Shown here one piece after another: positions 37,127 to 53,279 of a DNA stretch of 53,279 nt; within the stretch, counting starts at the first letter, position 1, and each line of letters opens with the position of its first letter. The position numbers were made by a program, and so were the translations under genes. This stretch comes from Clostridiales bacterium (GTDB lineage Bacteria > Bacillota > Limnochordia > Darwinibacteriales > B1SED10-159). Location of the stretch: NCBI GenBank assembly GCA_003551965.1, contig PUOC01000035.1:1-53279 (forward strand), given 5' to 3'. The notes beneath the pieces were generated by a model. It did no database searches, was not told the DNA's origin, and worked only from the letters and a program-made list of their open reading frames with translations.

Positions 37127-37333
37127 TTTTCATGGGATGCAAACGGGTACTGTGGCCTCGGCCGGCATCAAAGCTGACGTTCGGGGTCGCTGCCGGACTG
37201 GTTTTCAGAGAAGCGCCAGATGACGCAGCAGGCCAGCCCAGAGCTGAATGCAACCAAGCCGGCGGCTGCATGGATTGGACCGAAGCGGTTGACCGCCATG
37301 GAGTCGAAATGCTGGTGCATGGGAGGTGAGACA

Positions 37334-38536
37334 GTGAAAATCTGCGGGACACGGGAGGAGTTCCTGGCCCATTTGATTGAATACTGCCGCAGTCGCCGTG
37401 AACATCGTGAGCATGAGGAGGAAGGCAGCAGAGCGCCGCTTTTGAAATCGTATCTATTGGAGGCGCCGGCCGCTGCGGATCCGATGGCCGTGTTTTCCCC
37501 GCCCGATACAGCTCAGCGACTGCAGCGGGTCGAGGAAGGCTTGTTCTGCATGGTCGAGGAGAATGAGGAGCGGGCCAAAGGATACATAGAGCATGTGTCG
37601 GGGCCGTATTGGCTTTTTTATTCCAACGAGCGCAGCAGTGACAGTGACCGCTTTGTGGAACGCTGGGTAAGGGGAGCACCCCAGGTGGAACAGCTGTGGA
37701 TATCCGGCTTGCTTTTTCAAGCCCTGTGGGACTGTTGGCTGGTCCAACAGCACCAAGAGCACCGCTACATCCGCATGAGTTTCGACTTTCGTGATCTCTT
37801 TTCCGATCCGGACCTGCATGATACGGGCGACGGTGATCCAGAAGACATGCTCCGGGAACGCCGAGTGTCTCGGATCAACATCATGGAACAGAAACAGACA
37901 CTGCAGAATACACTGCCCGCCCTGCAGAGAACGCTGTCATCCTTTTATGCCATCCATTCACTGCGTTTCCCGGCCCATCAAGGACGGGGCGGGCATGATG
38001 TCTATTTCAACGGCAAGGTGACCAATCGCAGCGATGATTTCATTGATCATCGCCGCCAGATCCGTGCCCTCTGTGGTATTTACGGAAATCTTACCAATAT
38101 GCTGGAGGACTTGGTTCCATTCGGCGCTGGGGCCGAAGGTGACGCAGGGCAGCTGGGTCTTGCTGATGTCCGGGGCTCAGCTGTGGTGATACGCTTCGCA
38201 AAAGCGTTGGATCCTAACCGGTATCATCATTTCGTTGAACATGCCCTACGTGAAGGCCGAACGGAGTTCGCTCTCTGGGGTAATCCTGTGGTTTTGGATG
38301 AGGAGCATGTTCATTTCTACGGACTCGATATGTACTACTGGCAGGAAGTGTATCTGCAACTGACAGCGGACCGAATCGTCTTGACCATGCCCGGCCGCAG
38401 GGCTGCCGTCATTCACCGCTTCCTCACACAGCTGCAGATGCTTTTGGAACCGAATATCCGGGTCGATGTGGCAGACACGGATTTCGGCTCCCTGGCGGCT
38501 GCAGCGGTGAAAAAGGGGGTGGACGGCGATGCCTGA
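37334..38536 (+). CDS. Unrecognised 400-aa protein, first gene of a two-gene operon
   Basis: I do not recognise this family. The N-terminal 40 residues are highly charged (CRSRREHREHEEEGS), then a mixed alpha/beta body follows. Notable segments are RFVERWVRGAPQVEQLWI, SFDFRDLFSDPDLHDTGDGD, INIMEQKQTLQNTLPALQR and GGHDVYFNGKVTNRSDDF. The composition is soluble, with no membrane segment or signal peptide, and no catalytic motif of a known class. The GTG at 37334 follows GGGAGGTGAG. Its stop overlaps the next gene's start by 8 bp, so the two are translationally coupled and probably form one complex. Confidence 0.8.
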   Translation: MKICGTREEFLAHLIEYCRSRREHREHEEEGSRAPLLKSYLLEAPAAADPMAVFSPPDTAQRLQRVEEGLFCMVEENEERAKGYIEHVSGPYWLFYSNERSSDSDRFVERWVRGAPQVEQLWISGLLFQALWDCWLVQQHQEHRYIRMSFDFRDLFSDPDLHDTGDGDPEDMLRERRVSRINIMEQKQTLQNTLPALQRTLSSFYAIHSLRFPAHQGRGGHDVYFNGKVTNRSDDFIDHRRQIRALCGIYGNLTNMLEDLVPFGAGAEGDAGQLGLADVRGSAVVIRFAKALDPNRYHHFVEHALREGRTEFALWGNPVVLDEEHVHFYGLDMYYWQEVYLQLTADRIVLTMPGRRAAVIHRFLTQLQMLLEPNIRVDVADTDFGSLAAAAVKKGVDGDA

Positions 38537-39542
38537 AGCAGGGCGTGAACTGTTGTGGGAGAAGAACTTGTGGCTGTGGATGGCCTCGCAAGGCAGCACC
38601 GCGCATCCGGTGCGGCCTATCCTATGGGAACGGGGCTACCGGATTGCGGCAGTTTCGCCTCGGCTGCCGGTGGCAGAAGCCGTGCTGGACACCATGGCAG
38701 CTTCCGGTTGGCCCGCGCTGGAATCTGTGCGGCCATTCCTGGTACTGCAGCGGCCCGATGACAGGCGGATGCTTCTGGTATATCTTCAGCCGCTGGCACA
38801 AGCGGTGGAGACAGTGGTTAAGGCGGAAATAGCGGCCTTGATCGGCCAAGAAGGTCTGCCCATGCTTCGCCCGGGCGCTTGGGCGGCCTCGGAAGCAGAA
38901 GGGGCTGATGTGCTCTATTGCTTCCCTGAGGAACAAAAGGATGCGGTGCTGCCGTGGATCGACGATGCGGCGGAACTGCTGCAGGGTGAAGCGCCTTCGA
39001 TGCAGGTCCATGCCGCCAGTATTATCCGCCGCAGCGATGGGATCTTTTTGCGAGGCTATGGCAAAAAGCCGCTGTTGGCTGAAACGGACATTCCAGTCAT
39101 CGGCCGGGATTGCCCACCGCTTTATTGGCTGCCCTGCGACGAGAAGGCGGCCAAGCCCGGCTCCTATGATGAGACCGTCTTCTGGGAACGGATTCGCATT
39201 CGGCTGGCCGCTTGGCTTGCCCAAGTGCCGCAGGCCGGTTCCATGCGCATCGCCGTGGACAACCTGCTGCAATCCATTCAGCCACTGTGGCCTGCTTGGA
39301 AGGAAACCGATCACAAGGCGCGGCTGCGGCTGCTGGCAGCCGGCTGGATGCGGCAGCTCCTTGATGAACTGCGGCGTTCCAGCGGTTTTACCATGCACGA
39401 GCAGGAGGGCGTGTTTGTCATGGATCCGCTGACGCAGACCCAGCGGGACCGAGTCCGTGCCGCCATCAGCTCCCGCGGCTTCCGGACGCGTACACCGAAG
39501 AAACCACAACAGCTGGAATTGGACTTTCGGAAGCGGTCCTAG
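38529..39542 (+). CDS. Unrecognised 337-aa protein ending in a candidate sliding-clamp-binding motif
   Basis: Also unrecognised. It is soluble, about 50% helical, with Trp-rich beginnings (WEKNLWLWMASQG). The last quarter includes RLRLLAAGWMRQLLDELRR and GVFVMDPLTQTQRDRVRAAI, then a basic tail RTRTPKKPQQ and the end QLELDFRKRS. Q328-L-E-L-D-F333 matches the hexapeptide QLxLxF by which DNA polymerases and repair proteins bind the beta clamp. With its basic linker this suggests a DNA-associated role, but that is inference from a short motif. The start ATG overlaps the previous gene. No terminator was identified between it and the small zinc-ribbon membrane protein. Confidence 0.8.
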   Translation: MPEAGRELLWEKNLWLWMASQGSTAHPVRPILWERGYRIAAVSPRLPVAEAVLDTMAASGWPALESVRPFLVLQRPDDRRMLLVYLQPLAQAVETVVKAEIAALIGQEGLPMLRPGAWAASEAEGADVLYCFPEEQKDAVLPWIDDAAELLQGEAPSMQVHAASIIRRSDGIFLRGYGKKPLLAETDIPVIGRDCPPLYWLPCDEKAAKPGSYDETVFWERIRIRLAAWLAQVPQAGSMRIAVDNLLQSIQPLWPAWKETDHKARLRLLAAGWMRQLLDELRRSSGFTMHEQEGVFVMDPLTQTQRDRVRAAISSRGFRTRTPKKPQQLELDFRKRS

Positions 39543-39598
39543 TGGAGCTTGCGAGTGATTGGCAGAAAGTGCTGTGAAGCAGAGGAGGGAACCGTGCA

Positions 39599-39847
39599 AT
39601 GCCGGAAGACCGGAACCGCTGCCCAAACTGTGACAGTGAACGCACTCGAGATTATGTGGTGGGCTTAGCCCTCGTTGCCGCAGGCTTTGTTTTCTGTGTC
39701 TTGACGGTTTTGTTGGTTACCATCGGGTCGAACCACACTGCAGCAGCAGTGACATTTGTGCTTTTCCTCGTCTGTGCGGTCACGGGGCGCCACGCCATGA
39801 CCTATTCCCAATGCGATTTCTGCGGGGCTGTATGGAGACGGGAATAG
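39599..39847 (+). CDS. Small membrane protein with split zinc ribbon
   Basis: An 82-aa protein. CPNC near residue 8-11 and CDFC near residue 72-75 could make a zinc ribbon around a central hydrophobic hairpin. The middle has two membrane-spanning stretches (ALVAAGFVFCVLTVLLV and AAVTFVLFLVCAVTG). Function unknown. The ATG follows AGAGGAGGGA at 9 nt. It lies 56 bp after the clamp-motif protein, same strand, and so may belong to that operon. Confidence 0.65.
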   Translation: MPEDRNRCPNCDSERTRDYVVGLALVAAGFVFCVLTVLLVTIGSNHTAAAVTFVLFLVCAVTGRHAMTYSQCDFCGAVWRRE

Positions 39848-40012
39848 CGGAGTGCTGCTCGATGGTCTATGCTCGGGCCCTTCCCGGAATCGTGGGATCG
39901 GTTTTGCCGTGAGGACAAGGCGGCGTCAAGGGTTTGTTGGGGTGGCAGCGATCTGAGGCCTTTGAGCTCGGTGTTGCCCAGTAGGCCCCATGGAACAAGA
40001 CAAGGAAGGGAT

Positions 40013-41266
40013 GTGTCCGATGTGACGCAGACGGAAAAGGACTATGTGGTGCTGCGGGAACTGGCAGTTAAGGTGCGGGAAGTCAGTGAAGATCCCCGTC
40101 AGCAGGAGCGGATCCAGTTGTGGAAGCAGGTGAATGGACTCAAACCAGTCCGCCCGATGGTTCTAATCGACCAGATTCCGTGGCACGAAATGAATGTGGA
40201 TGATGAATTAACCCTCTTAACCCACGATCCCTTCTGCCGCAAGCTGGAATGGGACCTGCGCACCACCCTGTACAAATGGAATCACTTCCCTGTGGACATG
40301 GTTGTGCCATCGTACGTGGATATCCCCATGGCCATTTCGGGACTGCATTACGGTCTCCAGCCGCTGGAGCAGACAGCGGCCTTGGACGCCGCCAATGATG
40401 TGGTGGGGCATTTCTATCACGATCAGCTGCGGACGGAAGCGGATTTGGAGAAGATCAAGATGCCCCAGGTGGTTCACGACCGTGATCTGACCGCCAGACG
40501 CATGGAAATGGCCAGGGACATCTTCCAAGATATCCTCGCTGTCAGACCCCAAGGGACGGTACCGAACTTTGCTCTTTGGGACCGCATTGTGGAGTACCGG
40601 GGTGCGGAGGCCGTTATGTATGATCTCGTCGATCGTCCGGACTTCATACACAAGTTGGTGTCCCGCATGCAGCGGGCGACCTTGGCCATGGTGGATCAGT
40701 TAGAGGAACAGGGTCTGCTGCCCAAGAGCCAGCTGACTGTTCACTGTTCCGGAGCCCATAGCCATGAGCTGCCGGCATCGGGGTATGATTGCACCCAGCC
40801 CCGGATGCAGGATATTTGGACCTTCGGCATGGCCCAGATTTTTGCCGCCGTGTCCAAAGTGATGCATGAAGAATTCGATCTGCAGTATGCGGAGCCGTTT
40901 TATGCCCGTTCCGGCCTGGTGTATTACGGCTGCTGCGAACCCCTGGATGGAAAGCTGGACCGGGTGCGCAAGATACCCAATCTCAGGAAGATCTCCATCA
41001 GCCCGTGGGCGGATCCAGGCAGAGCGGCGGAACAGATCGGTGATTGTTTTGTCCTGTCCCGCAAACCCAGTCCGGCCTACTTGACCGATGATGGCTGGGA
41101 TGAGGAAGAAATTCGACGGGATATCTCCTTTACCATGGAGGTCGCGACGGCCAACGGCTGCCCCTTGGAATTTATCCTTAAGGATATCAGTACTGTCAAC
41201 TACAAGCCGCAGCGCCTGTGGCGCTGGAGCGAATTGGTCATGGAGTTGGTGCAGAACGGCGCATAG
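40013..41266 (+). CDS. Uroporphyrinogen decarboxylase-fold protein (methyltransferase-like)
   Basis: A 417-aa URO-D-superfamily TIM barrel. This group includes MtaA/MtbA-type corrinoid:CoM methyltransferases and relatives of unknown substrate. Supporting segments are WDLRTTLYKWNHFPVDMV, YDLVDRPDFIHKLVSRM, TVHCSGAHSHELP, YYGCCEPLDGKLDRVRKI and SISPWADPGRAAEQIG. HC in VHCSG and the CC pair resemble the His/Cys zinc ligands of MtaA-type enzymes. True heme-pathway URO-D is unlikely because the N-terminal RPxWxMRQAGR motif is absent. The GTG at 40013 follows AAGGAAGGG. GTG 40022 is an alternative. No corrinoid protein gene is nearby. Confidence 0.7.
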   Translation: MSDVTQTEKDYVVLRELAVKVREVSEDPRQQERIQLWKQVNGLKPVRPMVLIDQIPWHEMNVDDELTLLTHDPFCRKLEWDLRTTLYKWNHFPVDMVVPSYVDIPMAISGLHYGLQPLEQTAALDAANDVVGHFYHDQLRTEADLEKIKMPQVVHDRDLTARRMEMARDIFQDILAVRPQGTVPNFALWDRIVEYRGAEAVMYDLVDRPDFIHKLVSRMQRATLAMVDQLEEQGLLPKSQLTVHCSGAHSHELPASGYDCTQPRMQDIWTFGMAQIFAAVSKVMHEEFDLQYAEPFYARSGLVYYGCCEPLDGKLDRVRKIPNLRKISISPWADPGRAAEQIGDCFVLSRKPSPAYLTDDGWDEEEIRRDISFTMEVATANGCPLEFILKDISTVNYKPQRLWRWSELVMELVQNGA

Positions 41267-41356
41267 CGAAGCGTGACGGGCAGCCAGGGGAACATCACAA
41301 AGCGATGCCCAGCCGGTCTTTGGTTTGAACCTGCAGCGGCTGCGCATCGTTCTGCG

Positions 41357-42565
41357 TTATACCGAGGGTATGCCTTGTGTCTCGGGCAGGTCGGATATGT
41401 CCAGGAGGAACAACTGGTTGGATTGGCTGTCATGGGGATCGCCGCCGGTGAATAAGATCCACTGCCGGTCCGGTGTCACCTGCGTATGAAAATGGGAACT
41501 TTGGCCTCCGCCATAGGTGGGCCAAGTGCCCGTGAGGCGAACCCAGATGTCGCCGCCTTCGGGGTCGTGCACCGCTAGAAAATACATGTCGTGTATATGG
41601 CCGACCTCCCGTGTTTGGGCGGATCGCTTAGAGCCCCGCTGTTGATTTTCAAAAAACCACAGCCGTCCTTGGGGATCCCAGCCTGTGTGGGTATAGCCGA
41701 AATACTCCGGGAGCTTAAACTCAAATCGTCTATGGGTGAACGGATTATAAAGGCCGGCATAGACCCCTGCGGCGGAACCGAGTACTTCGTAGGCAAGCCC
41801 GGCGTCGGTGGCCAGATAGTGACACACGCTGCCTCCGCCGGTATCTTGAGTCCGCAGATGGGTGTACCAGCCTCCCTCTAGGCTTGTCCACAGCATACCG
41901 TTTTCGGTGGCTGGATGGCAGAAGACGACGTGTTCATTATCAAAGGGAAGAACATGATGAATGGGGCTGTTGATGCGGACTAACTCTCTGTGTTCTTCCG
42001 TGTCCAAGTGAAAGGCTGCCAAAACCGTACCCCGGGACAGGCAGCGGCTGTGCCGCGGCGCATGCTGTCCTGCCATCATTTGGTTAATGAAAATATCCCG
42101 ATCGTGGTGAATGTAGATGAACCACTGGCCATCAGGGGTGACGCAGTTTTGGCCGATGGCCATGCGCGAATCGGGCAGCCGGAAGAGCAGACGCTCGCTT
42201 AGGGATTCCAATGCGACGCACCGTACGTCCGGACCGTCGAAATAGATCACTTCCTGCCGCTTTTGGTTGAGAACGCTGCGGTGGTCGAGGACCCCTGACC
42301 CTTTGTCAACGCACCATGGATACCAATGGGTATCAGGCGAGGTTGCATTGGTGATCTGCACGCTTTCACCGCTGGACAGTTCTAGACGATGCAGTTGCAC
42401 TTCGCCTTGGTCAGCGTGGTGAAATATGAGATAGCGCTGATCTCTTGTGATCGACGGAATGAAGTAATAGAGCGGATAATTGTAACCGGGCAGATTGGTT
42501 AACTGCACCGCTTTGCGCCCGGTTTCAGGCGCGGAGACGGTAGGAAACTTGTCGTGTAACTGCAA
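41357..42565 (-). CDS. Oligogalacturonate lyase-like beta-propeller (PL22 type)
   Basis: A 402-aa seven-bladed propeller resembling oligogalacturonate lyase (Ogl), which splits unsaturated digalacturonate in the cytoplasm during pectin breakdown. The start LTNLPGYNYPLYYFIPSITRD and repeated blades (QVTPDRQWILFT, CVTPDGQWFIYI) fit. The HFHTQ segment near the C-terminus supplies the His/Gln expected of the Mn site. The TTG at 42565 is preferred because GGGGGATGACGCA precedes it, and an upstream start would run into the previous gene. It is the last gene of the minus-strand SBP operon. The relation to Ogl is moderate, so a related uronide is possible. Confidence 0.7.
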   Translation of the reverse strand: MQLHDKFPTVSAPETGRKAVQLTNLPGYNYPLYYFIPSITRDQRYLIFHHADQGEVQLHRLELSSGESVQITNATSPDTHWYPWCVDKGSGVLDHRSVLNQKRQEVIYFDGPDVRCVALESLSERLLFRLPDSRMAIGQNCVTPDGQWFIYIHHDRDIFINQMMAGQHAPRHSRCLSRGTVLAAFHLDTEEHRELVRINSPIHHVLPFDNEHVVFCHPATENGMLWTSLEGGWYTHLRTQDTGGGSVCHYLATDAGLAYEVLGSAAGVYAGLYNPFTHRRFEFKLPEYFGYTHTGWDPQGRLWFFENQQRGSKRSAQTREVGHIHDMYFLAVHDPEGGDIWVRLTGTWPTYGGGQSSHFHTQVTPDRQWILFTGGDPHDSQSNQLFLLDISDLPETQGIPSV

Positions 42566-42617
42566 TGCGTCATCCCCCAGTTCATGGCCGTATTGTGTTG
42601 CAACGGCGGCTGCGTTC

Positions 42618-43739
42618 TTAAAACGCCATGCGCTCCCAACCCCTGCTGTCAGCCGACACAGGAGGGAGCCCCAGAATTTCTCGGGCTGTGTCCACATAGT
42701 AGCGGTAATTGTCTATGGGTGTGCCGTTGGGGATGCGGTGATCGAGGCCGAATACGGTTCCCGTTTGGGCTGTCAGGGGCTGCATCTTATACTCTAATTC
42801 CTGGCGGATTGCCTCCTTGTCCTGACGGAGAACATGTTTGTCGATACCGCCTTTGTAAGCCAGTTTCGTACCATACTTGCGGCGGCATTCTACGATGTCC
42901 ATGGCTGCTGCGGGTTCCATGGGATACATCACGTTGACGCCGCAGTCCAGGAAAGCATCCATGACCGCATTCATATTGCCGTCGCTGTCCTGGGAAAAGA
43001 GCTTTGTACCCCGCTGGGAAACGAGATCCCATGCTGAGCGGTAATAGGGTTTGAGAAATTCTGCAATGGTATTAGGCCCGATAAGACACCCGGATTTCCC
43101 GGCCATGTCCTCATGGATGTGCAGATTATCGATGACGAGGTGATCGGTGATCCGTTCCAATACCTTGACAGCTGTGTCGGACGCCGTGGCGAGCATATCC
43201 TGCATGAGGTCTGGTTGATCATAATAGCAGAGGCAGGTGTACTCCTCGCCCATCAGCTGGCGGGGAAAATCAAAGCCTCCGGGGATGCCGGCGGTAATGA
43301 GGTGCCCTTGCTTTTGCAGGGTTTGGGCAGTCTCCACCTGCTTCCAGTCGATGCGCTGCTCATTGAACGTAAACAACGGCTTGACCTTTTCCCAACTTTC
43401 CCAGTCTTTGACGGGGTGATCCTGGGGAAGCGGCAGCGTGGCAGACTTCTTATACAGCAGCATGGTGCGGCCCAATTCATCCTTGGTCAACACGTGATCT
43501 GCCGTTTCTTCCAGCACTTGCGGTTTTTGCCCGCCCTGGCGGCCGGTATGGCCGCCGCAACTGGCCCGGGGAACATAGTCCCAGCAGAACGCCGTCATGG
43601 CAATCTCATCTTCCGACGCTCCCTGGCTGCGCCACTCCTCTTCAAGTCCGATCAGGGGCCCGAAGAGCTCCACAAACATCGGCCGCTCACTTTCTCCGAA
43701 TGTCATCAATTCAATGTATTCTTCCCTTGTCCAACGCAC
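42618..43739 (-). CDS. Uroporphyrinogen decarboxylase-fold protein (URO-D superfamily)
   Basis: A 373-aa URO-D-like TIM barrel of the methyltransferase-type branch. It shows MFVELFGPL near the start, the segments LITAGIPGGFDFPRQLMG and VIDNLHIHEDMAG, then GTKLFSQDSDGNMN, GVNVMYPMEPAAAMDIVE, KLAYKGGIDKHVL and GTVFGLDHRIPNGTP. These are the family's substrate-pocket strands. The GTG at 43739 follows GAGGTG by 7 nt; ATG 43760 has no site. It sits 53 bp before the Ogl-like gene and 114 bp after SBP3, with a hairpin between. The role could be a demethylation or decarboxylation in uronate use. Confidence 0.75.
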   Translation of the reverse strand: MRWTREEYIELMTFGESERPMFVELFGPLIGLEEEWRSQGASEDEIAMTAFCWDYVPRASCGGHTGRQGGQKPQVLEETADHVLTKDELGRTMLLYKKSATLPLPQDHPVKDWESWEKVKPLFTFNEQRIDWKQVETAQTLQKQGHLITAGIPGGFDFPRQLMGEEYTCLCYYDQPDLMQDMLATASDTAVKVLERITDHLVIDNLHIHEDMAGKSGCLIGPNTIAEFLKPYYRSAWDLVSQRGTKLFSQDSDGNMNAVMDAFLDCGVNVMYPMEPAAAMDIVECRRKYGTKLAYKGGIDKHVLRQDKEAIRQELEYKMQPLTAQTGTVFGLDHRIPNGTPIDNYRYYVDTAREILGLPPVSADSRGWERMAF

Positions 43740-43853: not shown

Positions 43854-45773
43854 CTATTCTGCAAAGAAGACCTGGGCGGGATTACGGTTCATAGTATAGG
43901 TGGAATCCCAGCCCCAGAAACCTGTTTCCGGCACATTGCGCAGGTTGTCTTTGGCGATGATCGGATGGGGGATCATACCCACTGTACCAATCATCCAGAG
44001 GTTTTCGGCCTGCGCCCGCAGGATGTTTTTGCCCAGTTCGAGGCGTTTATCCGGATCGGGCTCCCGCAAAGCCTGTGTCCACCAGCGGTTGAGCTGCTTG
44101 ATGTCTTCCGGAGGCTTTTCGCCTTCGCGGCCGTCGGTGTTAATCCAAGTTTCCCAAAGCGGCCAATGTGTCCGTTCCCAACCGGTATTGCTGGGTACCA
44201 AGTAATAGTTGGCCTGAATGGGATAGAGACCATCACTTTCGCGTCCGCCAATCCAATTGCTTGCATCCATGAGATTGGCAGCGGTCCGCTGGCCTTGCAG
44301 TTCTCCGGAGATGACCCGGGAGCGGACGTCTAGCCCCACTTCCTGCCAGTATTGGACGGCCAATTCTACCACAGGGGTCCTCGGTATTACGACATCGGGA
44401 TATTCCATGATGACCGTCAAGCGCTGGCCATCGGGACGCAGTCGGTAACCTTCGCCGTCTTTCTCGTCCAGGCCCATAGCATCCAACAGCTCGGAGGCCT
44501 GCTCTGGATCATAATCAGCGTAGGCAGTGGCAAATTCCGGCTCGTAATAGATACTGCTTTCCAACAGGGTGAACTGCCGGGGGGTGCCTTGGCCGAAATA
44601 GACCACGTCGTTGATCTCTTCCCGATCCAGTGCCAGTGACAGCGCTTGACGGAAACGGACGTCCTGGAAAATGTCCCGCATGACAGGATCGCTGTGGGTC
44701 ATATTGACCATGAAGAAGACGGCATTTCCAAAGGTGGTATCCCAGAGAATGGTTCTGTAGCTACCTTCCTCTTCGGCGCCCCGGTACAGGGGATAATTGG
44801 CCAGCTCCGTATTGCGCCCTTCGAAATCGATGGCGCCGCTCATGATCATACCCTGTACCACTTCGCTATCGGCAACGATTTCGGTGTTGATACCGTCCAG
44901 ATAAGGAAGCTGGTTGCCTTCGGTATCGACCTGCCAGAAGTAGGGATTGGGCTTCCATGTTCTCCGATCTGACGTCAGAGTGTCAATGACCCAAGGGGTC
45001 AGAGCTGGTCGATCTTCGCGAATGGGGTTGCCCCAGATCGCGTCGTTCTTGTACCCGAAATATTCATACCATTCCTCATAACCGGCGTCTTCCACCATGG
45101 CTTGAAGCTCATCGGCATCAGCAAAATCGGGGTGAAATTGGCTGAGGAAGTGTTTCGGCTGGAACAAATTGGTGCCTTGGCCGTGAATCACTTCATTCTG
45201 AAAGAACGGCATGGCTGTTGGGAAGCGGAACTCGACTGTGTAGTCATCGATGGCCACCACTTCCACGATCTCCCCTGTTTCAGCATTGCGCCATGGTGAT
45301 CCGATGGTGGGTGTCAGGTCCTCGTTCAAGAGCATGTGTTCATACCAAAACATGGTGTCTGCAGATGTCAGGGGCTCACCATCCGACCATCTGAGGCCTT
45401 CTCGGAAATGCAGCGTCCAGGTGGCCGTGTCTTCCGATGGAACTAGGTCCTTGGCCACGTGGGGGACAATGTCCGACAGGTCGGCGTTGGGTTTAATGGG
45501 CGACGGGAAAATGGAAAGCAGAGTATCGCCGCCGGCTGCAGTGGGAACGGTAGATGTTGTTCGCACGACACCGCCATAGCGGCCGATCTCTTCTGCCGGC
45601 TCGACCACATAGACATCTTTGGGCAGGCGTTCTTCGACAGGGGGCAGTTCGCCGGCGGCGACCATCTCGGCAAAGGTGGGCGATTCCTGAAATGTCTCGG
45701 GTATGGCCCAAACTCCACTGCTGAGAACAAGGATCATGCAGATGCTCAATAGGAGTACATTTGTCTTTGGCAT
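43854..45773 (-). CDS. ABC transporter substrate-binding protein (family 5)
   Basis: The third family-5 SBP of the window, 639 aa, with a signal peptide (KTNVLLLSICMILVLSSGVWA). It shares LPPVEERLPKDVYVVEP, GLRWSDGEPLTSADTMFWY, NPYFWQVDTEGNQLPYLD and FRQALSLALDREEI with the other two. It has no permease or ATPase genes of its own here, so it probably docks on the dpp-type transporter at 28-33 kb or on one elsewhere. The ATG at 45773 has GGAGG at 6 nt. Downstream genes (URO-D-like, Ogl-like) on the same transcript suggest a pectin or uronide ligand. Confidence 0.9.
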   Translation of the reverse strand: MPKTNVLLLSICMILVLSSGVWAIPETFQESPTFAEMVAAGELPPVEERLPKDVYVVEPAEEIGRYGGVVRTTSTVPTAAGGDTLLSIFPSPIKPNADLSDIVPHVAKDLVPSEDTATWTLHFREGLRWSDGEPLTSADTMFWYEHMLLNEDLTPTIGSPWRNAETGEIVEVVAIDDYTVEFRFPTAMPFFQNEVIHGQGTNLFQPKHFLSQFHPDFADADELQAMVEDAGYEEWYEYFGYKNDAIWGNPIREDRPALTPWVIDTLTSDRRTWKPNPYFWQVDTEGNQLPYLDGINTEIVADSEVVQGMIMSGAIDFEGRNTELANYPLYRGAEEEGSYRTILWDTTFGNAVFFMVNMTHSDPVMRDIFQDVRFRQALSLALDREEINDVVYFGQGTPRQFTLLESSIYYEPEFATAYADYDPEQASELLDAMGLDEKDGEGYRLRPDGQRLTVIMEYPDVVIPRTPVVELAVQYWQEVGLDVRSRVISGELQGQRTAANLMDASNWIGGRESDGLYPIQANYYLVPSNTGWERTHWPLWETWINTDGREGEKPPEDIKQLNRWWTQALREPDPDKRLELGKNILRAQAENLWMIGTVGMIPHPIIAKDNLRNVPETGFWGWDSTYTMNRNPAQVFFAE

Positions 45774-46436
45774 ACGCAACCTCCATTCAATTTTAAGATA
45801 TACAAGTTTCCGATGGCCTGGCTCAACAGCTTTTTGATATCATCCCCGTTCGTGGCTGGATGCACGGCCGATCTGCCTATCCTTCTTATCCGCTTTCCTT
45901 AAGCCGGCACTATTCTACGGAGCGGTTTTTCGAGGTGTCCGACAGAAGTCGAGCGTTTTTAGGCAGCTTTGGACAGCATCCGTGGCCATTGCCGTTTCGG
46001 CTGTTCATAACAAAAAAGCTAATAATATGTTACCACGGATTTTTGTAATGTAAATTAGCTAGAGAGTTTTTTCGGATCTTGCAGAGCTCCATGAACTAGC
46101 CAATAGCTTCCTTTCCCATGACGGTACAGAAGGGTCTCGCTTCGAGATGATGAGGCAGAATCGTGGAAGCTTGGTGTGTTAGGTGCCGGAATGCCCAGGA
46201 ACAGAAGCCCTGTCTTCACGCTACGTGCGGGACGCTTTGGGTCGAGACGGTCAGCAGGTGCGGAGAGGATCATGGTGGCTGCCGAACACAGGGCAGGGGT
46301 TCGCCTATGACCGGCCACCACAGCGCAGATTAAAGCAGTCGCGACTGTGAAGCAGGGAAGGGCACAAAGAATATCGAAAAACAAGGCATTAGTAATATAT
46401 TGGAAAATCTCTGTGGTGACACAACGGAAACCGTAG
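45774..46436. other. 663-bp gap, AT-rich in the middle
   Basis: It carries the leader of SBP3 (minus) and, at its right end, the broken end of an SBP relic. Around 46010-46070 the sequence is AT-rich and contains a 7-bp inverted repeat (AGCTAAT / ATTAGCT, 46018-46024 and 46054-46060). A 268-codon minus frame from 46055 to 46861 overlaps the SBP relic and is rejected as a shadow. Confidence 0.5.
45797..45826 (-). promoter_or_regulatory. Possible promoter of SBP3
   Basis: On minus, TTGAGC (45826-45821), 18-bp spacer and TATATC (45802-45797), placed 24 bp upstream of the start codon. Confidence 0.3.
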
Positions 46437-46943
46437 TTGATCATAGAGCGCTGGAGAGAAGTGGACGTCGATGTCCGGCTCGAGCTGATCTCCGGTGAGC
46501 TTCGGTCTGAACGGGCCCCGGCGAACATGATTGAAGTCAGCGGCTGGCACGGAGACTTTGTTACGGACATTGAATTTCCGTCCAATCCGCGGGACTTTGT
46601 ACCGCATCGAGACACCGGCGGCATGAATCTTTGGCCTCTGTGGGGGATGTGGTACCATGCCGACGGTGAGTCGGGAGAGGGACCGCCCGAGCTAGTCCAA
46701 GATATGCACGGCATTTGGCAGGAGCTAATGGTGGAGCCCGACGACGAGCGCCGCGTGGAGTTGGGCAAGGGAATTTTGGCGATCCAGGCCGAGCAACTGT
46801 GGTCCATCGGCACCGTCGGCAAAACCCCGTATCCCCTCATTGTCAATAAAGATCTCCGCAATTTCTTCGACGAAGGGTATTGGGTCTGGGGCCTATGGTG
46901 GAGCTCCGGCAGCGACCCGGAACAACTGTTCTTCGACCGCTAG
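46437..46943 (+). pseudogene. Truncated family-5 SBP (C-terminal 168 codons)
   Basis: The open frame aligns with the last ~165 residues of SBP3: both have DVRxxxISGELxxxRxxAN, HWPLW/LWPLW, GExPPE, RxELGKxILxxQAExLWxIGTVG and an FFxE/FFDR ending. About 470 N-terminal residues are missing. No ribosome binding site or signal peptide precedes it, and a stop codon (TAG) precedes the first possible start. It is therefore a remnant of a fourth SBP gene, facing away from SBP3. Confidence 0.8.
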
Positions 46944-47038: not shown

Positions 47039-47779
47039 ATGAAGAATGTCGGTGTTATCTCGTATCTACTGCGTCACCATCCCACGGCCATGGCCATGGA
47101 GATTTTGCGGGACATGGGATTTTCCTGTGTGGAACTGGACTTTCGGCACAGCGATGGCCTCTGCGATTACACCCAGGCCGATGCGGCCGATGCCGAGAAG
47201 GTACGGTCCTTGGTAGAGAGCTATGGCATTACACCCTTGGCCTACTGCGTGGGCGGTTTCAATGCCGACCGGGCGGTGCATTTGCGCCGGGTCTTTGAGT
47301 TTGCCAAGGGCTTGGGTGTATCCACCATTACAGGGGTCTTATCCCCGGATGTCTTGGAACCGTTGGACGCTCTCTGCCAGGAATATCAGATTCGCTATGC
47401 CATTGAAAACCACAAAGGCGATGCCTTTGAAAACGCCGGGCATTACCTGGAGCGGTTGAAGGACTGTTCTCCCTATATCGGGGTGAATGTGGACAGCGGC
47501 CATTTTGCCACTGCCGGCCTGGATCCCGTGGATGAGATTCGCAAACTAGAAGCTTTGGGCGGACGGATCTACCATGTCCATTTCAAAGATTCCGACCAGC
47601 GGGTGGACTTCGGCCAGGGAGATGTGGATTTAAAAGCCGTCTACCAGGAGTTGCAGCGGCAAAACTACGACGGCATGATCTCCATTGAACACTACGAGTA
47701 CCCCGAGATCACCGACGATGAATTGCGCCGAGGTTTAGCTGTGGCCTTGGATCATGTGAAAACCATCGTGGGTTCGTAA
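47039..47779 (+). CDS. Sugar phosphate isomerase/epimerase-family TIM barrel
   Basis: A 246-aa xylose-isomerase-like (AP endonuclease 2 superfamily) TIM barrel. Members include IolE, IolI and 3-keto-sugar epimerases. The metal site is visible in the order IENHKGDA, NVDSGHFATAG, YHVHFKDSD and MISIEHYEYPE, i.e. Glu, Asp/His, His and Glu. The ATG at 47039 follows GAGGAGG by 8 nt; longer frames are not supported. It is followed 27 bp later by a Gfo/Idh gene in the same operon, so it probably acts on a keto or aldo intermediate of those dehydrogenases. Confidence 0.85.
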   Translation: MKNVGVISYLLRHHPTAMAMEILRDMGFSCVELDFRHSDGLCDYTQADAADAEKVRSLVESYGITPLAYCVGGFNADRAVHLRRVFEFAKGLGVSTITGVLSPDVLEPLDALCQEYQIRYAIENHKGDAFENAGHYLERLKDCSPYIGVNVDSGHFATAGLDPVDEIRKLEALGGRIYHVHFKDSDQRVDFGQGDVDLKAVYQELQRQNYDGMISIEHYEYPEITDDELRRGLAVALDHVKTIVGS

Positions 47780-47806: not shown

Positions 47807-48931
47807 ATGCAGCGCAACTACCGTGTGGGCATTATCGGATTTGCCCATATGCATATCAATCACGTGGCCGCCTTATTCGCCGAACATCCCCAGGTGACCA
47901 TGGCCGCCTGCGCCGACACGAGACCGGATATACCCGAACGGCGGGAGGCACCCTATACCCGCCAGTGGAACCAGAAACACGCCTTGGAGGACATTGGTGT
48001 CCAAAAGGCCTACGACACCTATGAAGAGATGCTGGATGTTGAGTCTTTGGATCTTATCATCTGCTGTTCGGAAAACGACAAACACCCGGCGGTTGTGGAG
48101 GCCTGCGCAGAGCGGGGCATCCATGTCTGTGTGGAAAAACCCATGGCCATGGATTTATCCGGGGCGCGGCAGATGGTGCGGGCCTGTCAGCGGGCGGGTA
48201 CGGCCTTGGCGGTCAACTGGCCCATGGCTTGGGAACCGGCGATCCGCCAGACGAAGAAGCTTTTGGATGAGGGGGTCATCGGCCGCATTCTGCAGATCAA
48301 GATGCGCCGGGGCCATACGGGACCGTTGGGAGCTGGGGCCGCCCATGCCGGCGTATCCGAGACCGCCGCGCCCATGACCGAAGACGAACTGTCGGCCACG
48401 TGGTGGCACCGGCGTTCCGCCGGCGGCGGCGCAATGCTGGATTTCTGCTGTTACGGAGCCATGGCTTCCCGTTGGTTCTTAGACGAACAGGCCCAGGGGG
48501 TCTTGGGCCTAGCCGGCAACCTCAACAGTCCCTGGGGTGATGCCGATGACAATGGTGTCATGGTGATCCAATACCCCGGAGCCATGGGCATTGTGGAAGG
48601 AACGTGGACCACAGTGGCACCAGGGATCCCGGGCGGTCCCGTGGTCTATGGCACCCAAGGCACTCTGGTGGTGGGGGGGCAAGACGGGGAAACCTGTATT
48701 CGGGTGGACACAGCCTCGGGCAGCACCACCCATGCCTGCCCGCCCCTTCCGGAGGGGCGGCAGCAGATATCGGAAGAACTGATCCACCATCTTGACACCG
48801 GTGAACCCCTGCATCCGATGGTGGATGCCGCCCTCAACGTTGAAGTCATGGCCATCATTGATGCGGCCCTGCGTTCGGTGGAAACTAGAAAGCAGGAACA
48901 GCCCCTGAACGAGCATTGGCAGCTGGGATAA
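47807..48931 (+). CDS. Gfo/Idh/MocA-family oxidoreductase
   Basis: A 374-aa predicted NAD(P)-dependent dehydrogenase. The Rossmann start is RVGIIGFAHMHI (unusual, no GxG), and the EKP motif is VCVEKPMAM with catalytic K111. The C-terminal sheet domain includes TWWHRRSAGGGAMLDFCC (about 202-219) where substrate-binding His residues lie. The ATG has GAGAGAGGGAGGAAACGT upstream. It is the second gene of the glycyl radical operon. With the next gene it makes a tandem pair of dehydrogenases, suggesting two successive or opposite oxidoreductions. Confidence 0.88.
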   Translation: MQRNYRVGIIGFAHMHINHVAALFAEHPQVTMAACADTRPDIPERREAPYTRQWNQKHALEDIGVQKAYDTYEEMLDVESLDLIICCSENDKHPAVVEACAERGIHVCVEKPMAMDLSGARQMVRACQRAGTALAVNWPMAWEPAIRQTKKLLDEGVIGRILQIKMRRGHTGPLGAGAAHAGVSETAAPMTEDELSATWWHRRSAGGGAMLDFCCYGAMASRWFLDEQAQGVLGLAGNLNSPWGDADDNGVMVIQYPGAMGIVEGTWTTVAPGIPGGPVVYGTQGTLVVGGQDGETCIRVDTASGSTTHACPPLPEGRQQISEELIHHLDTGEPLHPMVDAALNVEVMAIIDAALRSVETRKQEQPLNEHWQLG

Positions 48932-48969
48932 GAACGGGCAGCGGCAAGACAGAGAGGAGTGCGATAGAA

Positions 48970-50061
48970 TTGAAACCACTGAGGACAGCGATTATCGGGA
49001 CCGGGATGATTGCCCACTTTCACTCCGATTCCTATCATAAGATTGACGGCAAGACAGGGGACATCCAGATGGTGGGCCTCTGCGACATCGTTCCCGGAAA
49101 GGCCCAGGCCTTTGCCGAAGCCCAAGGCTGGGAGCGCGCCAAGTGCTACGAAGACTACCGGGAGATGATCGAGGATCTGGAGATTGATGCGGTGAGCATC
49201 TGTACGCCCAACCGGGTCCATGCCGATCCCGCTATCGTCTGTCTGCGGAATGGGATTGCTGTCATGCGCGAAAAGCCCATGTCCTATACCCTCCAGGAAG
49301 CGGTGGACATGGCCAGGACAGCCAAAGAAACCGGGAACATGCTCACCATCGGCTTCCAACCCCGCTATGATCCCAACAGCGCCGTGCTGGAGCGCATTGT
49401 CCAGTCGGGACGCTTGGGCCAGATCTATCACGTCGAAACCGGAGGCGGACGGCGCCGGGGCATTCCCGGCGGCTCCTTCATTAAAGCTGAAGAAGGGGGA
49501 TACGGAGCTACCAATGACATCGGCTGCTATGCCTTGGACATGGTCCTAGCACCCTTGGGGTATCCCAAGCCCTTATCGGCTACCGCCCAGACGAGCAACC
49601 ACTTCGGCAAAACGCCGGCAGTGGGCCAAGCCGGGGGCGATTGGGGGACGTGGACGCCCGATGAATTTCAAGTGGAAGACTTTGCCACGGGCTATGTCCG
49701 GTTGGAAGGGGACATCAGCCTCGTGTTCCGAACGGCGTGGGCCATGCACATGGATAGCCTGGGCCATACCCTGTTCCTAGGCACCAAGGGCGGTCTCAAA
49801 TGCCACGACGGAGGCCTGCGGGAGATGACCCTCTATCAAGACTTAGATACCGATCTGCAGACCCAGAGCCCGGTGTCGGCCAAGAATGGCGATGTGGATA
49901 TCTTCACGGCGAAGATCGACGACTTTGTCCGGGCGGTAGTGGAAGAGGACACAGCACCCATTCCGGGGGAGACCATCGTCTATAACCAAGCTATCATTGA
50001 CGGTTTGATGCGTTCGGCTGCCCAAGGAAAGGAAGTTGCCATTGATATTCCCGCCATCTAG
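48970..50061 (+). CDS. Gfo/Idh/MocA-family oxidoreductase
   Basis: A 363-aa dehydrogenase with a classical GTGMIA loop (10-15) and REKPMSY (K102). The sheet domain has GGGRRRGIPGG and NDIGCYALDMVLAPLGYPK. The substrate histidine of the family appears within the conserved GC-Y-A-L-D segment region. TTG at 48970 follows GAGAGGAG at 10 nt. It lies 38 bp after the previous gene and is separated from the glycyl radical gene by 294 bp containing structured RNA. Its sequence differs from the preceding dehydrogenase, so the two are not a recent duplication. Confidence 0.88.
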   Translation: MKPLRTAIIGTGMIAHFHSDSYHKIDGKTGDIQMVGLCDIVPGKAQAFAEAQGWERAKCYEDYREMIEDLEIDAVSICTPNRVHADPAIVCLRNGIAVMREKPMSYTLQEAVDMARTAKETGNMLTIGFQPRYDPNSAVLERIVQSGRLGQIYHVETGGGRRRGIPGGSFIKAEEGGYGATNDIGCYALDMVLAPLGYPKPLSATAQTSNHFGKTPAVGQAGGDWGTWTPDEFQVEDFATGYVRLEGDISLVFRTAWAMHMDSLGHTLFLGTKGGLKCHDGGLREMTLYQDLDTDLQTQSPVSAKNGDVDIFTAKIDDFVRAVVEEDTAPIPGETIVYNQAIIDGLMRSAAQGKEVAIDIPAI

Positions 50062-50355
50062 ACAAAACCCTTACGTGGTCCCTGAGACAAGCTTTCGTTG
50101 ACTTGGCCTCGAAGCTCCGGCGGTTGCTGCTGTGCGGTTCGGACCTTGCCGCGGCAAGGCGCGGAACGGTCCGTCCGCAATCATCGCGGGTGGATCATTT
50201 CGTGAAATCGCTATCGGCTTTTGCGCCCTTGACCTGGTGTAGGGGTAAACGGACGGATGGCCGCCGAAATCTAGGCGGCCATTGGGCAGGGCATTGGGGA
50301 TCCTAAAGCGAATGGATGCAACAAACCATGTCCCCATGTGGAAAGGATGAACGTT
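50062..50355 (+). other. Structured leader of the glycyl radical gene
   Basis: Two dyads stand out: the palindrome CCTTGCCGCGGCAAGG (50144-50159) and the 9-bp hairpin ATGGCCGCC / GGCGGCCAT (50257-50282, loop 8). Between and around them is GC-rich sequence with GGACC/GGTCC repeats. The region may terminate, attenuate or regulate read-through into the GRE gene. No known riboswitch was recognised. Confidence 0.5.
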
Positions 50356-52587
50356 ATGTCGATTATCAGGGCCCAAACGCCCTATGATTTCGAGCGCCGC
50401 CTTGAAGCGCTGCGTCGGACCAAGGAAGCCCAAACCCAGGAAAAGCACCGGGTCATTGGTTCCATGGATCACGACGATTGGGCATTGATCCTGCCGCCGG
50501 AAGAACGGCGGGAGATGGTGGAGACCATCAGCGGATCGGGCATGCCCATCAAGGATGTGCGCTTAACCGGGGTGACCATCGAAAGCAATCACCCATCGGG
50601 CGGTTTTTTTGGCCCGAGCATCACCGGCCGGAACTTCCGTTCCCTTCTCGAAGCCCATCCGACCTATGTGGATCCCATGAGTTCCCTGGCCGGCGGATAT
50701 ATGGTCAACTTTGGTTCCTATCGGGATGTGGGTTGGAATCCAGACTTCAACTATGATCATCTCCGTCCGGATCAGGAACGTTACCAGCTGTTGCCGGGTA
50801 TCGGCGCCACCCAGCACTTCTGTCAGGACCTTGGGATCGGTCTGCGCAAGGGTTGGCAGGGCATTTTGGACGAAATTCGCCAATACCGTGATTGGCGGGG
50901 TGACACCGCCCGGGATTTCTACGATGGTCTGGAACACGTCGTCGTAGGGATCCAAGACTGGATCCGCCGCACGGCGGAGGACGCGAAGCTGCAGGCGCAG
51001 ACTTGCAGCGGTGCCCAGCGGGAGAACCTAGAAGCCATGGCCAAGATCAATGCATCCTTGGTCACCGAAGCACCGCAAACGTTCCGGGAAGCCTGCCAAT
51101 GGATTCTCTGGTTTCAGATCATCAGCCGCATGTACAATGGCAGCGGTTCCCTGGGCCGCTTAGACGACCTCTTGCTTCCCTTCTATGAAAAAGACAAGGC
51201 CCAGGGTCTGCTCGACGATGAAGAAGCGTCCTTTCACATTGCTTGCCTCTTACTGCGGGATACGGCCTATCTGCAGGTGGGCGGTGTCGATCCCCAAGGA
51301 CGGGATACCACCAATCCGGTGTCCTATCTCATTCTGGAAGCGGTGCACCAATTGAAGATTCCATCCAACTTAGGGGTGTCGGTGGGCGAGGCCATTGATC
51401 CGGGCCTGCTGCGCCGAGGTGCGGAAATTATGGTGGAAGATAGAACCGGCATTCCCAAATTCCTCGGCCATGACCACTGTATTGAGGAATATACCAAAAA
51501 TGGTCACCCCATTGAGTTAACCCGCCAGCGGGCCTATTCGGGTTGTCATTGGTACGGCCTTCCCGGCCGGGAGTATACCATGATGGATACGGTGAAGATC
51601 AATCTGGCTGCGGTCTTGGATGTGGCCCTCCAGGATATGTTTGAAAACCCAGACCAACCGCCGGCTATGGATCGGTTGCTGCCGTTGTATGAAACCCATC
51701 TGCAGCGGGCAGTGGAGACCATTGCCAAGGGACTGGATTTCCATTGCCGGCACATGCAGGACGTGTTCCCGGAGTTGGTCATGGATTTGCTCTGCTACGG
51801 ACCCATTGAAAAGGGAATGGATGCTTCCTATTACGGTGTTGAGTTCTATAATCTTTGCTTGGACGGGGCGGGCCTGGCCACCACCGCCGACTCTCTGGCC
51901 GCCTTGGATCAGCTGGTGGAGACCGAAGGGCGGTATACCTGGGAGGAGATCCAAGAACAACTGGCCAACAATTGGGACGGCGAGGACGGCGAAGAAATCC
52001 GGCAGCGCATGGCGGGCATCGATCGCTTCGGTTCCGGCGGTTCCTTAGCCGATGGCTACGCCGAGGAAATTGTCCGGACCTTTACCCGCTTAGTCAAAGA
52101 AAGACCTACGCCGGACGGGCGCAGCATGGTGCCGGGCCTGTTTTCCTGGGCCAACACCATTCCCATGGGAAGGCAGCTGCGGGCCACGCCGAATGGCCGC
52201 CGGGATGGCGAGCCCATTTCCCACGGAGCCAATCCCGATCCGGGCTTTCGCCGGGACAACGCGGCCACCGCCCTGGCCGCCGCGGTGGCGGCTGTCCAGC
52301 CGGGCTTCGGCAACGCAGCGCCTCTGCAGATCGAGTTGGATCCGTCCCAAGTTTCCGATGATGACAGTGTCGACCGTATTGTGGACTTGATTAACGCGCA
52401 CTTTTCCTTAGGAGGGACCCAGATCAACATGAATGTTGTGGATAAGGAGAAGGTCTTGGAAGCCCATGCCGATCCTGCCAAGCATCTGGATCTGGTGGTG
52501 CGGGTCACCGGGTTCAGTGCCTATTTTGCCAGTCTGTCTCCGGAGTTTCGCCAGCTCGTGGTGGACCGGATCGTGGGGTTGAAGTAG
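50356..52587 (+). CDS. Glycyl radical enzyme, divergent (pyruvate formate-lyase-like fold)
   Basis: A 743-aa glycyl radical enzyme. G719 lies in the radical loop RVTGFSAYF, 24 residues from the C-terminus. C397 is in the Cys loop SGCHWYGLPGREY. The characterised dehydratases and lyases have GC-V-E, while PFL has CC. Here Cys is followed by His-Trp, so the general base and hence the reaction probably differ. The C-G spacing (322) is as in other GREs. The ATG at 50356 follows AAAGGA at 8 nt. The gene adjoins its activase without a gap and lies behind two sugar dehydrogenases and an isomerase, so a deoxy- or anhydro-sugar substrate is plausible. Oxygen sensitivity implies anaerobiosis. Confidence 0.9.
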   Translation: MSIIRAQTPYDFERRLEALRRTKEAQTQEKHRVIGSMDHDDWALILPPEERREMVETISGSGMPIKDVRLTGVTIESNHPSGGFFGPSITGRNFRSLLEAHPTYVDPMSSLAGGYMVNFGSYRDVGWNPDFNYDHLRPDQERYQLLPGIGATQHFCQDLGIGLRKGWQGILDEIRQYRDWRGDTARDFYDGLEHVVVGIQDWIRRTAEDAKLQAQTCSGAQRENLEAMAKINASLVTEAPQTFREACQWILWFQIISRMYNGSGSLGRLDDLLLPFYEKDKAQGLLDDEEASFHIACLLLRDTAYLQVGGVDPQGRDTTNPVSYLILEAVHQLKIPSNLGVSVGEAIDPGLLRRGAEIMVEDRTGIPKFLGHDHCIEEYTKNGHPIELTRQRAYSGCHWYGLPGREYTMMDTVKINLAAVLDVALQDMFENPDQPPAMDRLLPLYETHLQRAVETIAKGLDFHCRHMQDVFPELVMDLLCYGPIEKGMDASYYGVEFYNLCLDGAGLATTADSLAALDQLVETEGRYTWEEIQEQLANNWDGEDGEEIRQRMAGIDRFGSGGSLADGYAEEIVRTFTRLVKERPTPDGRSMVPGLFSWANTIPMGRQLRATPNGRRDGEPISHGANPDPGFRRDNAATALAAAVAAVQPGFGNAAPLQIELDPSQVSDDDSVDRIVDLINAHFSLGGTQINMNVVDKEKVLEAHADPAKHLDLVVRVTGFSAYFASLSPEFRQLVVDRIVGLK

Positions 52588-53279
52588 ATGCGGCGACCGC
52601 AGCGAACCAAGCCATCGGCGGCAGCATCCCTGCCCCGTCAGCTTCTCTCTCAAGAAGGATTGATTTTCGATCTGCAGCGGGCCTCGACCCATGACGGTCC
52701 GGGCCTGCGCACCACGGTGTTCTGCAAGGGCTGCCCGCTGCAGTGTCTATGGTGTCATAACCCGGAGTCCATTTCGCCGCGCCCAGAGGTGCTGTATACG
52801 GCGGCCCGCTGCCGCGGCTGTGGCCGCTGCCTGGCAGTTTGTCGCAGCGGAGCCATCGGAGAGGACGGTCCCGCCCACCGGCGCCAACACCTCTGCACAG
52901 CGTGCGGTGCCTGCACGGAGGCCTGCGCCGGCGGCGCCCTGTATTCGGCGGGGCGGACGGTGACGGTGGCCGAGATCTTGGATCAAGCACTCCTAGACGC
53001 TCGCTTCTATGCCCAATCCGGCGGTGGTGTGACCATCTCCGGAGGCGAGCCGATGCTGCAGCCTTCGTTTACGGCGGCGTTGGCGGAAAGCCTCCATCGT
53101 TTGGGGATATCTGCTGCGTTGGATACCTCCGGTTTGTTTTCTTATGCTGCCTTGGAACCGATACTGCCCTTTTTGGATTTGATACTGTTTGATCTTAAGC
53201 ACATGCATTGGGAAACGCACCAACGGTTGACCGGTGTGTCCAATGAAAGGATTTTGATGAATCTAGAAGAGCTGGCCAA
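52588..53279 (+). CDS. Glycyl radical enzyme activating enzyme (radical SAM), partial
   Basis: The frame opens at the ATG immediately after the GRE stop codon (no gap) and runs off the right edge after 230 codons. The radical SAM cluster Cys are C49-x3-C53-x2-C56 in CPLQCLWC (with C46 before). Two ferredoxin-like motifs follow, CRGCGRCLAVC and CTACGACTEAC, as in GRE activases that carry two additional 4Fe-4S clusters. Next come GGVTISGGEPMLQP and FDLKHM, the SAM- and cluster-binding regions. The enzyme would install the glycyl radical on the adjacent GRE using SAM. A poor ribosome binding site suggests translational coupling. Confidence 0.9.
   Translation, partial: MRRPQRTKPSAAASLPRQLLSQEGLIFDLQRASTHDGPGLRTTVFCKGCPLQCLWCHNPESISPRPEVLYTAARCRGCGRCLAVCRSGAIGEDGPAHRRQHLCTACGACTEACAGGALYSAGRTVTVAEILDQALLDARFYAQSGGGVTISGGEPMLQPSFTAALAESLHRLGISAALDTSGLFSYAALEPILPFLDLILFDLKHMHWETHQRLTGVSNERILMNLEELA

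Follow-up and report, generated by a model that had tools for sequence, protein, structure and literature searches.

A Cys-X-Glu (CXE) motif is described as conserved among glycyl radical enzyme (GRE) eliminases (PMC7077986, PMC8473560). Its glutamate forms a hydrogen bond to the hydroxyl of the substrate and, for most eliminases, is regarded as the base; the variants E436Q of HypD and E470Q of IslA are inactive (PMC7077986, PMC8473560). PflD and YbiW cleave 1,5-anhydrohexitol-6-phosphates (PMC12441222). In phenylacetate decarboxylase, which was compared by description only and which differs in substrate class, the CXE glutamate is also replaced, with glutamine at its position (PMC9248008). 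Together with the C-C-V-S of pyruvate formate-lyase (PFL), this example shows that a glutamate behind the thiyl cysteine is no general rule for GREs; an initial annotation of the DNA analyzed here had ascribed it to the characterized dehydratases and lyases. The window, by which we mean the whole analyzed stretch of 53,279 nucleotides, encodes a GRE, an enzyme of an oxygen-sensitive kind, in which this position is occupied by tryptophan.

The window GRE and its cysteine loop

The GRE open reading frame has a GTG start and encodes 749 amino acids; an alternative ATG at 50356 gives 743 amino acids. Residues were numbered from this ATG, as in the initial annotation, which makes the cysteine C397. 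Pfam searches detected the PFL-like domain (E = 5.7e-87) and the Gly_radical domain (E = 5e-14; PF01228 with 53.2 bits). The RVxG[FY] loop expected of the superfamily is present near the C terminus as RVTGFSAYF. An AF2 model (pLDDT 83) was compared using Foldseek and revealed the GRE barrel fold, with TM scores of 0.77-0.79 to solved GREs; the positions of active-site residues were taken from alignment alone. The activase reading frame begins at the base right after the GRE stop codon and passed the TIGR02494 cut-off (253.8 bits, cut-off 174.35) although it is truncated. The window protein has the glycyl loop, the catalytic cysteine, the barrel fold and an activase, and thus belongs to the GRE superfamily. 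All coordinates are given in Table 1.

Table 1. Features of the window, with strand and evidence
Feature	Position	Strand	Evidence or remark
Family-5 extracellular solute-binding protein	43854..45779	-	PF00496, 2.2e-57
Xylose-isomerase-like TIM barrel protein	47042..47779	+	PF01261, 6.3e-27; ORF open from 46880
Second Gfo/Idh/MocA-type dehydrogenase	47807..48931	+	PF01408
Gfo/Idh/MocA-type sugar dehydrogenase	48916..50061	+	PF01408, 1.4e-28; under all NCBIfam equivalog cut-offs
GRE gene	50338..52587	+	PF02901 and PF01228; AF2 model matching GRE structures
H154, retained active-site His	50815..50817	+	Aligns with glycerol dehydratase H164 and HypD H160
Loop-shortening site D302-Q307	51259..51276	+	About 20 residues fewer than eliminases, by alignment
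Cys loop GCHWYGLPGREY	51541..51576	+	C397, H398, W399, E406; in-frame translation
C397	51544-51546	+	Family-invariant Cys, 23/23
H398	51547-51549	+	His in 18, Asn in 5 of 23
W399	51550-51552	+	CXE Glu position; 23/23
E406	51571-51573	+	23/23
D411-K414 segment	51586..51597	+	Alignment
D411	51586-51588	+	Aligns with glycerol dehydratase D447; 23/23
K414	51595-51597	+	Column of the invariant Arg of PFL; 23/23
W598, family-invariant Trp	52147..52149	+	Two residues past the glycerol dehydratase Tyr640 position (here F596)
Glycyl radical loop RVTGFSAYF (R716-F724)	52501..52527	+	G719 at 52510-52512
GRE activase (radical SAM)	52588..53277	+	TIGR02494; ORF cut by contig end at 53279

Translation of window positions 51541-51581 on the forward strand gave GCHWYGLPGREYT, in frame within the GRE reading frame. 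The protein was aligned with 22 homologues of 40-64% identity. Homologues were obtained from about 85,000 species genomes (19), from the phylum of the window (2) and from plasmids of the marine Bacteroidota Persicobacter and Flammeovirga (2); the protein of locus L005 was read for the motif and omitted from the later alignment. As controls, 21 GREs outside the family were used, namely other Chloroflexota GREs, two of them from the genome of the window, and E. coli YbiW. All 23 aligned members read G-C-[H/N]-W, and C-x-W was found in none of the 21 controls, of which 14 had C-x-E and seven the PFL-type C-C-V-S. The two further GREs of the window's genome, one HypD-like (L001) and one YbiW-like (L002), both carry a normal C-V-E.

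Since C397 and W399 are found in every aligned member, the GCHW reading of the initial annotation can be regarded as neither chance nor sequencing error, and the absence of the CXE glutamate as real throughout the family. With all members reading C-[H/N]-W and all controls C-x-E or C-C-V-S, tryptophan at the glutamate position can be used as the marker of the clade. C397 aligns with the catalytic cysteine of glycerol dehydratase, PflD and HypD. It is the only cysteine invariant across all 23 members, so no other cysteine can serve as the thiyl residue of the family, and its earlier assignment to the active site holds.

The initial annotation had proposed H398 and E406 as replacement bases. H398 is a poor candidate: it occupies the X position of CXE and is replaced by asparagine in five members (L010, L018, L026 and both plasmid proteins), which comprise a whole subclade and, in addition, L010, and we rejected it as an essential base. 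E406 is invariant in the family and unconserved among the control GREs. The surrounding PGREY, which had been regarded as distinctive, is mostly ordinary scaffold (PGRTY in PflD, PGKTE in glycerol dehydratase), and only E406 in it is family-specific. By conservation E406 qualifies as a candidate, yet D411, K414 and H154 qualify equally, all of them being as unvarying as W399 (23/23 each). Thus the general base cannot be named from sequence.

Across the phyla, dozens of polar residues show no variation or almost none. Together with the equally retained glycyl loop and C397, and with an activase that adjoins the GRE at 11 of the 24 loci, this makes it very improbable that the family is a degenerate or non-catalytic GRE paralogue, a reading to which the loss of a residue essential in HypD and IslA (PMC7077986, PMC8473560) would otherwise lend itself.

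Relation to described GREs

Among the top sequence-profile and fold matches of the window GRE were glycerol dehydratase, Archaeoglobus PFL2 and the 1,5-anhydromannitol-6-phosphate lyase PflD, the last also in a structure with 1,5-anhydromannitol-6-phosphate, with an identity to the closest solved structures over the fold of only 20-22%. PflD was the best match by both profile and fold (PflD/YbiW: PDB 8yjo, 8id0, 8id7). It shares with the family the barrel, the P-G-R in the Cys loop and an Asp 14 residues past the cysteine, and the substrate of PflD and YbiW is related to sugars, like the substrate class we infer for the family. In contrast to the family, PflD has C-V-E instead of C-H/N-W and a loop of about 20 residues that family members lack. 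With the PflD model NF007437 the window GRE scored 232 bits, below the cut-off of 1109.

In B12-independent glycerol dehydratase (1r8w/1r9d; TM 0.77), the catalytic cysteine, His164 and Asp447 correspond to retained residues (C397, H154 and D411), whereas Glu435 is replaced by tryptophan, His281 faces a gap and Tyr640 is replaced by phenylalanine. The columns were taken from the alignment. The segment of about 20 residues that is absent from the family is the one bearing an active-site aromatic residue (Phe) in eliminases. This aromatic sits near the Cys and Gly loops (PMC7077986, PMC8473560).

Several features are shared with PFL. It also has no glutamate past the cysteine and has a basic residue in the column of K414, the invariant Arg435. 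N626 and N691 are common to the family and all seven PFLs, whereas the 14 eliminases have Ser and Gln. However, the adjacent Cys-Cys pair of PFL is missing (G396-C397 in the window GRE), and for this reason PFL function was rejected.

In a maximum-likelihood tree the family formed one clade with full support, on a branch of 3.61 compared with 3.64 for PFL, and a single clade of PFL plus the family was not rejected (p-AU 0.258). Thus the GREs described here form a distinct clade with a Glu-to-Trp exchange and a shortened loop. Members were found in Chloroflexota, Armatimonadota, Planctomycetota, Clostridiales and on the two marine Bacteroidota plasmids.

The window GRE remained far below the NCBIfam equivalog cut-offs for CutC, HypD, HpsG/HpfG, IAD and HPAD, and reached 71 bits with the PFL model (cut-off 994). 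All other NCBIfam equivalogs were likewise far from their cut-offs, and no named cluster was found to contain the GCHW motif. Twenty other members were scanned and match the same general NCBIfam models as the window GRE. A search of the open-access literature on GREs with Anaerolineae or glycoside hydrolases revealed no matching cluster, and subscription literature may describe one. Judged by these features, the family is placed outside the CXE eliminases, PFL and all named families.

The PFL-like features bear on the type of reaction. The enzyme could cleave a C-C bond, epimerise or rearrange its substrate rather than eliminate. With no base beside the cysteine, no ketyl would be formed by hydroxyl deprotonation, as in PFL, and K414 would bind a carboxylate as the PFL arginine does. 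The missing glutamate, K414, the two asparagines and the tree with PFL and the family as one clade are consistent with such chemistry. Against it, the second cysteine of PFL, which is needed for acyl-enzyme chemistry, is missing, the eliminase-site histidine is kept as H154, and the window GRE scored 265 bits with the PFL2/dehydratase model versus 71 bits with the PFL model. We consider this non-eliminase chemistry rather unlikely, and keep it alive because of the lost glutamate, K414 and the two PFL-like asparagines.

Gene neighborhoods of the family

In the window, the gene for the TIM barrel isomerase-like protein and the two Gfo/Idh dehydrogenase genes precede the GRE gene. A similar set was found at locus L006, where a gene similar to that of the second dehydrogenase lies immediately upstream of the GRE gene. 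The solute-binding protein is possibly part of a substrate importer. At 46353-46934 (forward strand) the window also encodes a family-5 solute-binding protein of which only the C-terminal third is present and the N-terminal part is missing. Its identity to residues 443-639 of the intact protein at 43854-45779 is 38.6%, and it is apparently the remnant of a duplicated importer gene. Further upstream, at 37220-42697, four consecutive reading frames of 337-465 amino acids had no Pfam match at 1e-3.

On the Persicobacter and Flammeovirga plasmids the order is activase, GRE and a small protein, with GH47 and SusC/D genes nearby and, in Flammeovirga, additionally GH130 and a sulfatase. In a Chloroflexota relative (L025/L050) a GH130 gene lies directly downstream of the GRE gene. 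The 100 family neighbors included the glycoside hydrolases GH20 (three), GH47, GH29, GH116 and GH130 (two each) and also GH36, as well as three sulfatases, six ABC permeases and five Gfo/Idh proteins, and SusC/D was also seen. Three of the 100, namely a GH130, a sulfatase and a symporter of L028, were farther away than the distance limit allowed and were included manually. Some loci, such as L007 and L015, are related, so that the counts are not fully independent. Among the 59 neighbors of other Chloroflexota GREs, no glycoside hydrolase family or sulfatase occurred at least twice among the best 25 of 82 families, a list that would hide single-member families.

At 11 of the 24 loci an activase lies no more than about 220 bases away from the GRE; the other 13 had no adjacent activase, and some of these lie at contig ends. 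Apart from the activase, no single neighbor is common to most loci, and several loci, such as L008 and L016, have unrelated neighbors.

The small protein of the two marine Bacteroidota loci, L027 (18187-18606) and L028 (18137-18547), has 136-139 amino acids and is encoded directly downstream of the GRE. The two proteins are 66% identical and cupin-like by eye; they had no Pfam match and no homologue in other family loci. This protein could act on the GRE product. Two other loci, L021 (4085-4909; no Pfam match) and L022 (11277-12200), encode homologous proteins in the vicinity of the GRE, in which GGYIYQ occurs close to the N terminus. Genes of the URO-D superfamily lie near the GRE at L010 (10350-11447) and L004 (1582-2520).

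The family often sits among sugar-degrading genes, and a sugar-derived substrate is therefore probable. Alternatively, the sugar genes might be incidental to polysaccharide-degrading hosts, and the enzyme might be an eliminase whose substrate is a small compound other than a sugar, such as a diol, an amine or a sulfonate. The great differences in neighborhood among loci and the sporadic distribution would fit this: only three of 399 Chloroflexota genomes, the window's own included, carry a member, and class-wide searches around the other two Chloroflexota carriers found no further ones. However, sugar genes recur across several phyla, and the equivalents of the glycerol dehydratase glutamate, His281 and Tyr640 are lost and the lid loop is shorter, which points to a differently bound substrate. 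We regard a small non-sugar substrate as unlikely.

Proposed reaction and significance

The reading we favor, with slightly less than even confidence, is that of a functional GRE of a distinct clade that acts on a carbohydrate-derived substrate and in which proton chemistry has moved off the CXE glutamate. Here, by homology and with all required residues present, the activase would put the radical on G719, from which it would be passed to C397 as a thiyl. The thiyl would abstract a C-H hydrogen from a sugar, an anhydro-sugar or a sugar acid. W399, perhaps with W598, is probably an aromatic wall for sugar stacking. Proton transfer would be carried out by other invariant polar residues, with H154, D411 and E406 as candidates, and K414 may anchor an anionic group. 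The likeliest outcome would be a radical elimination (loss of water, or ring or C-O cleavage) to a deoxy-keto product, which could be handled by the neighboring dehydrogenases or isomerases.

Substrate class, reaction type and the roles of single residues are inferred. Elimination is somewhat favored because the eliminase-like His and Asp are retained, while the PFL-like N626 and N691 and the variation of neighbors from locus to locus count against a sugar eliminase. The view of the initial annotation that loss of the glutamate implies a different chemistry or substrate is plausible. More tentatively still, the clade may be an undescribed isofunctional GRE family, with the base relocated or absent, that catalyzes a new radical reaction in at least five phyla, its substrate being an unphosphorylated sugar, a sugar acid or a glycoside.

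Labels such as 'formate C-acetyltransferase' or 'glycerol dehydratase' come from the general models that such genes match and should be read with caution. Known GRE eliminases rely on the CXE glutamate, and its uniform exchange for tryptophan in one clade, with a branch as long as that of PFL, shows a further catalytic layout on the GRE scaffold. For the discovery of a new radical reaction, anaerobic and probably directed at sugars, the clade offers a defined target. If it is indeed an undescribed isofunctional family, at least five phyla would share a solution to GRE catalysis that is independent of the glutamate.
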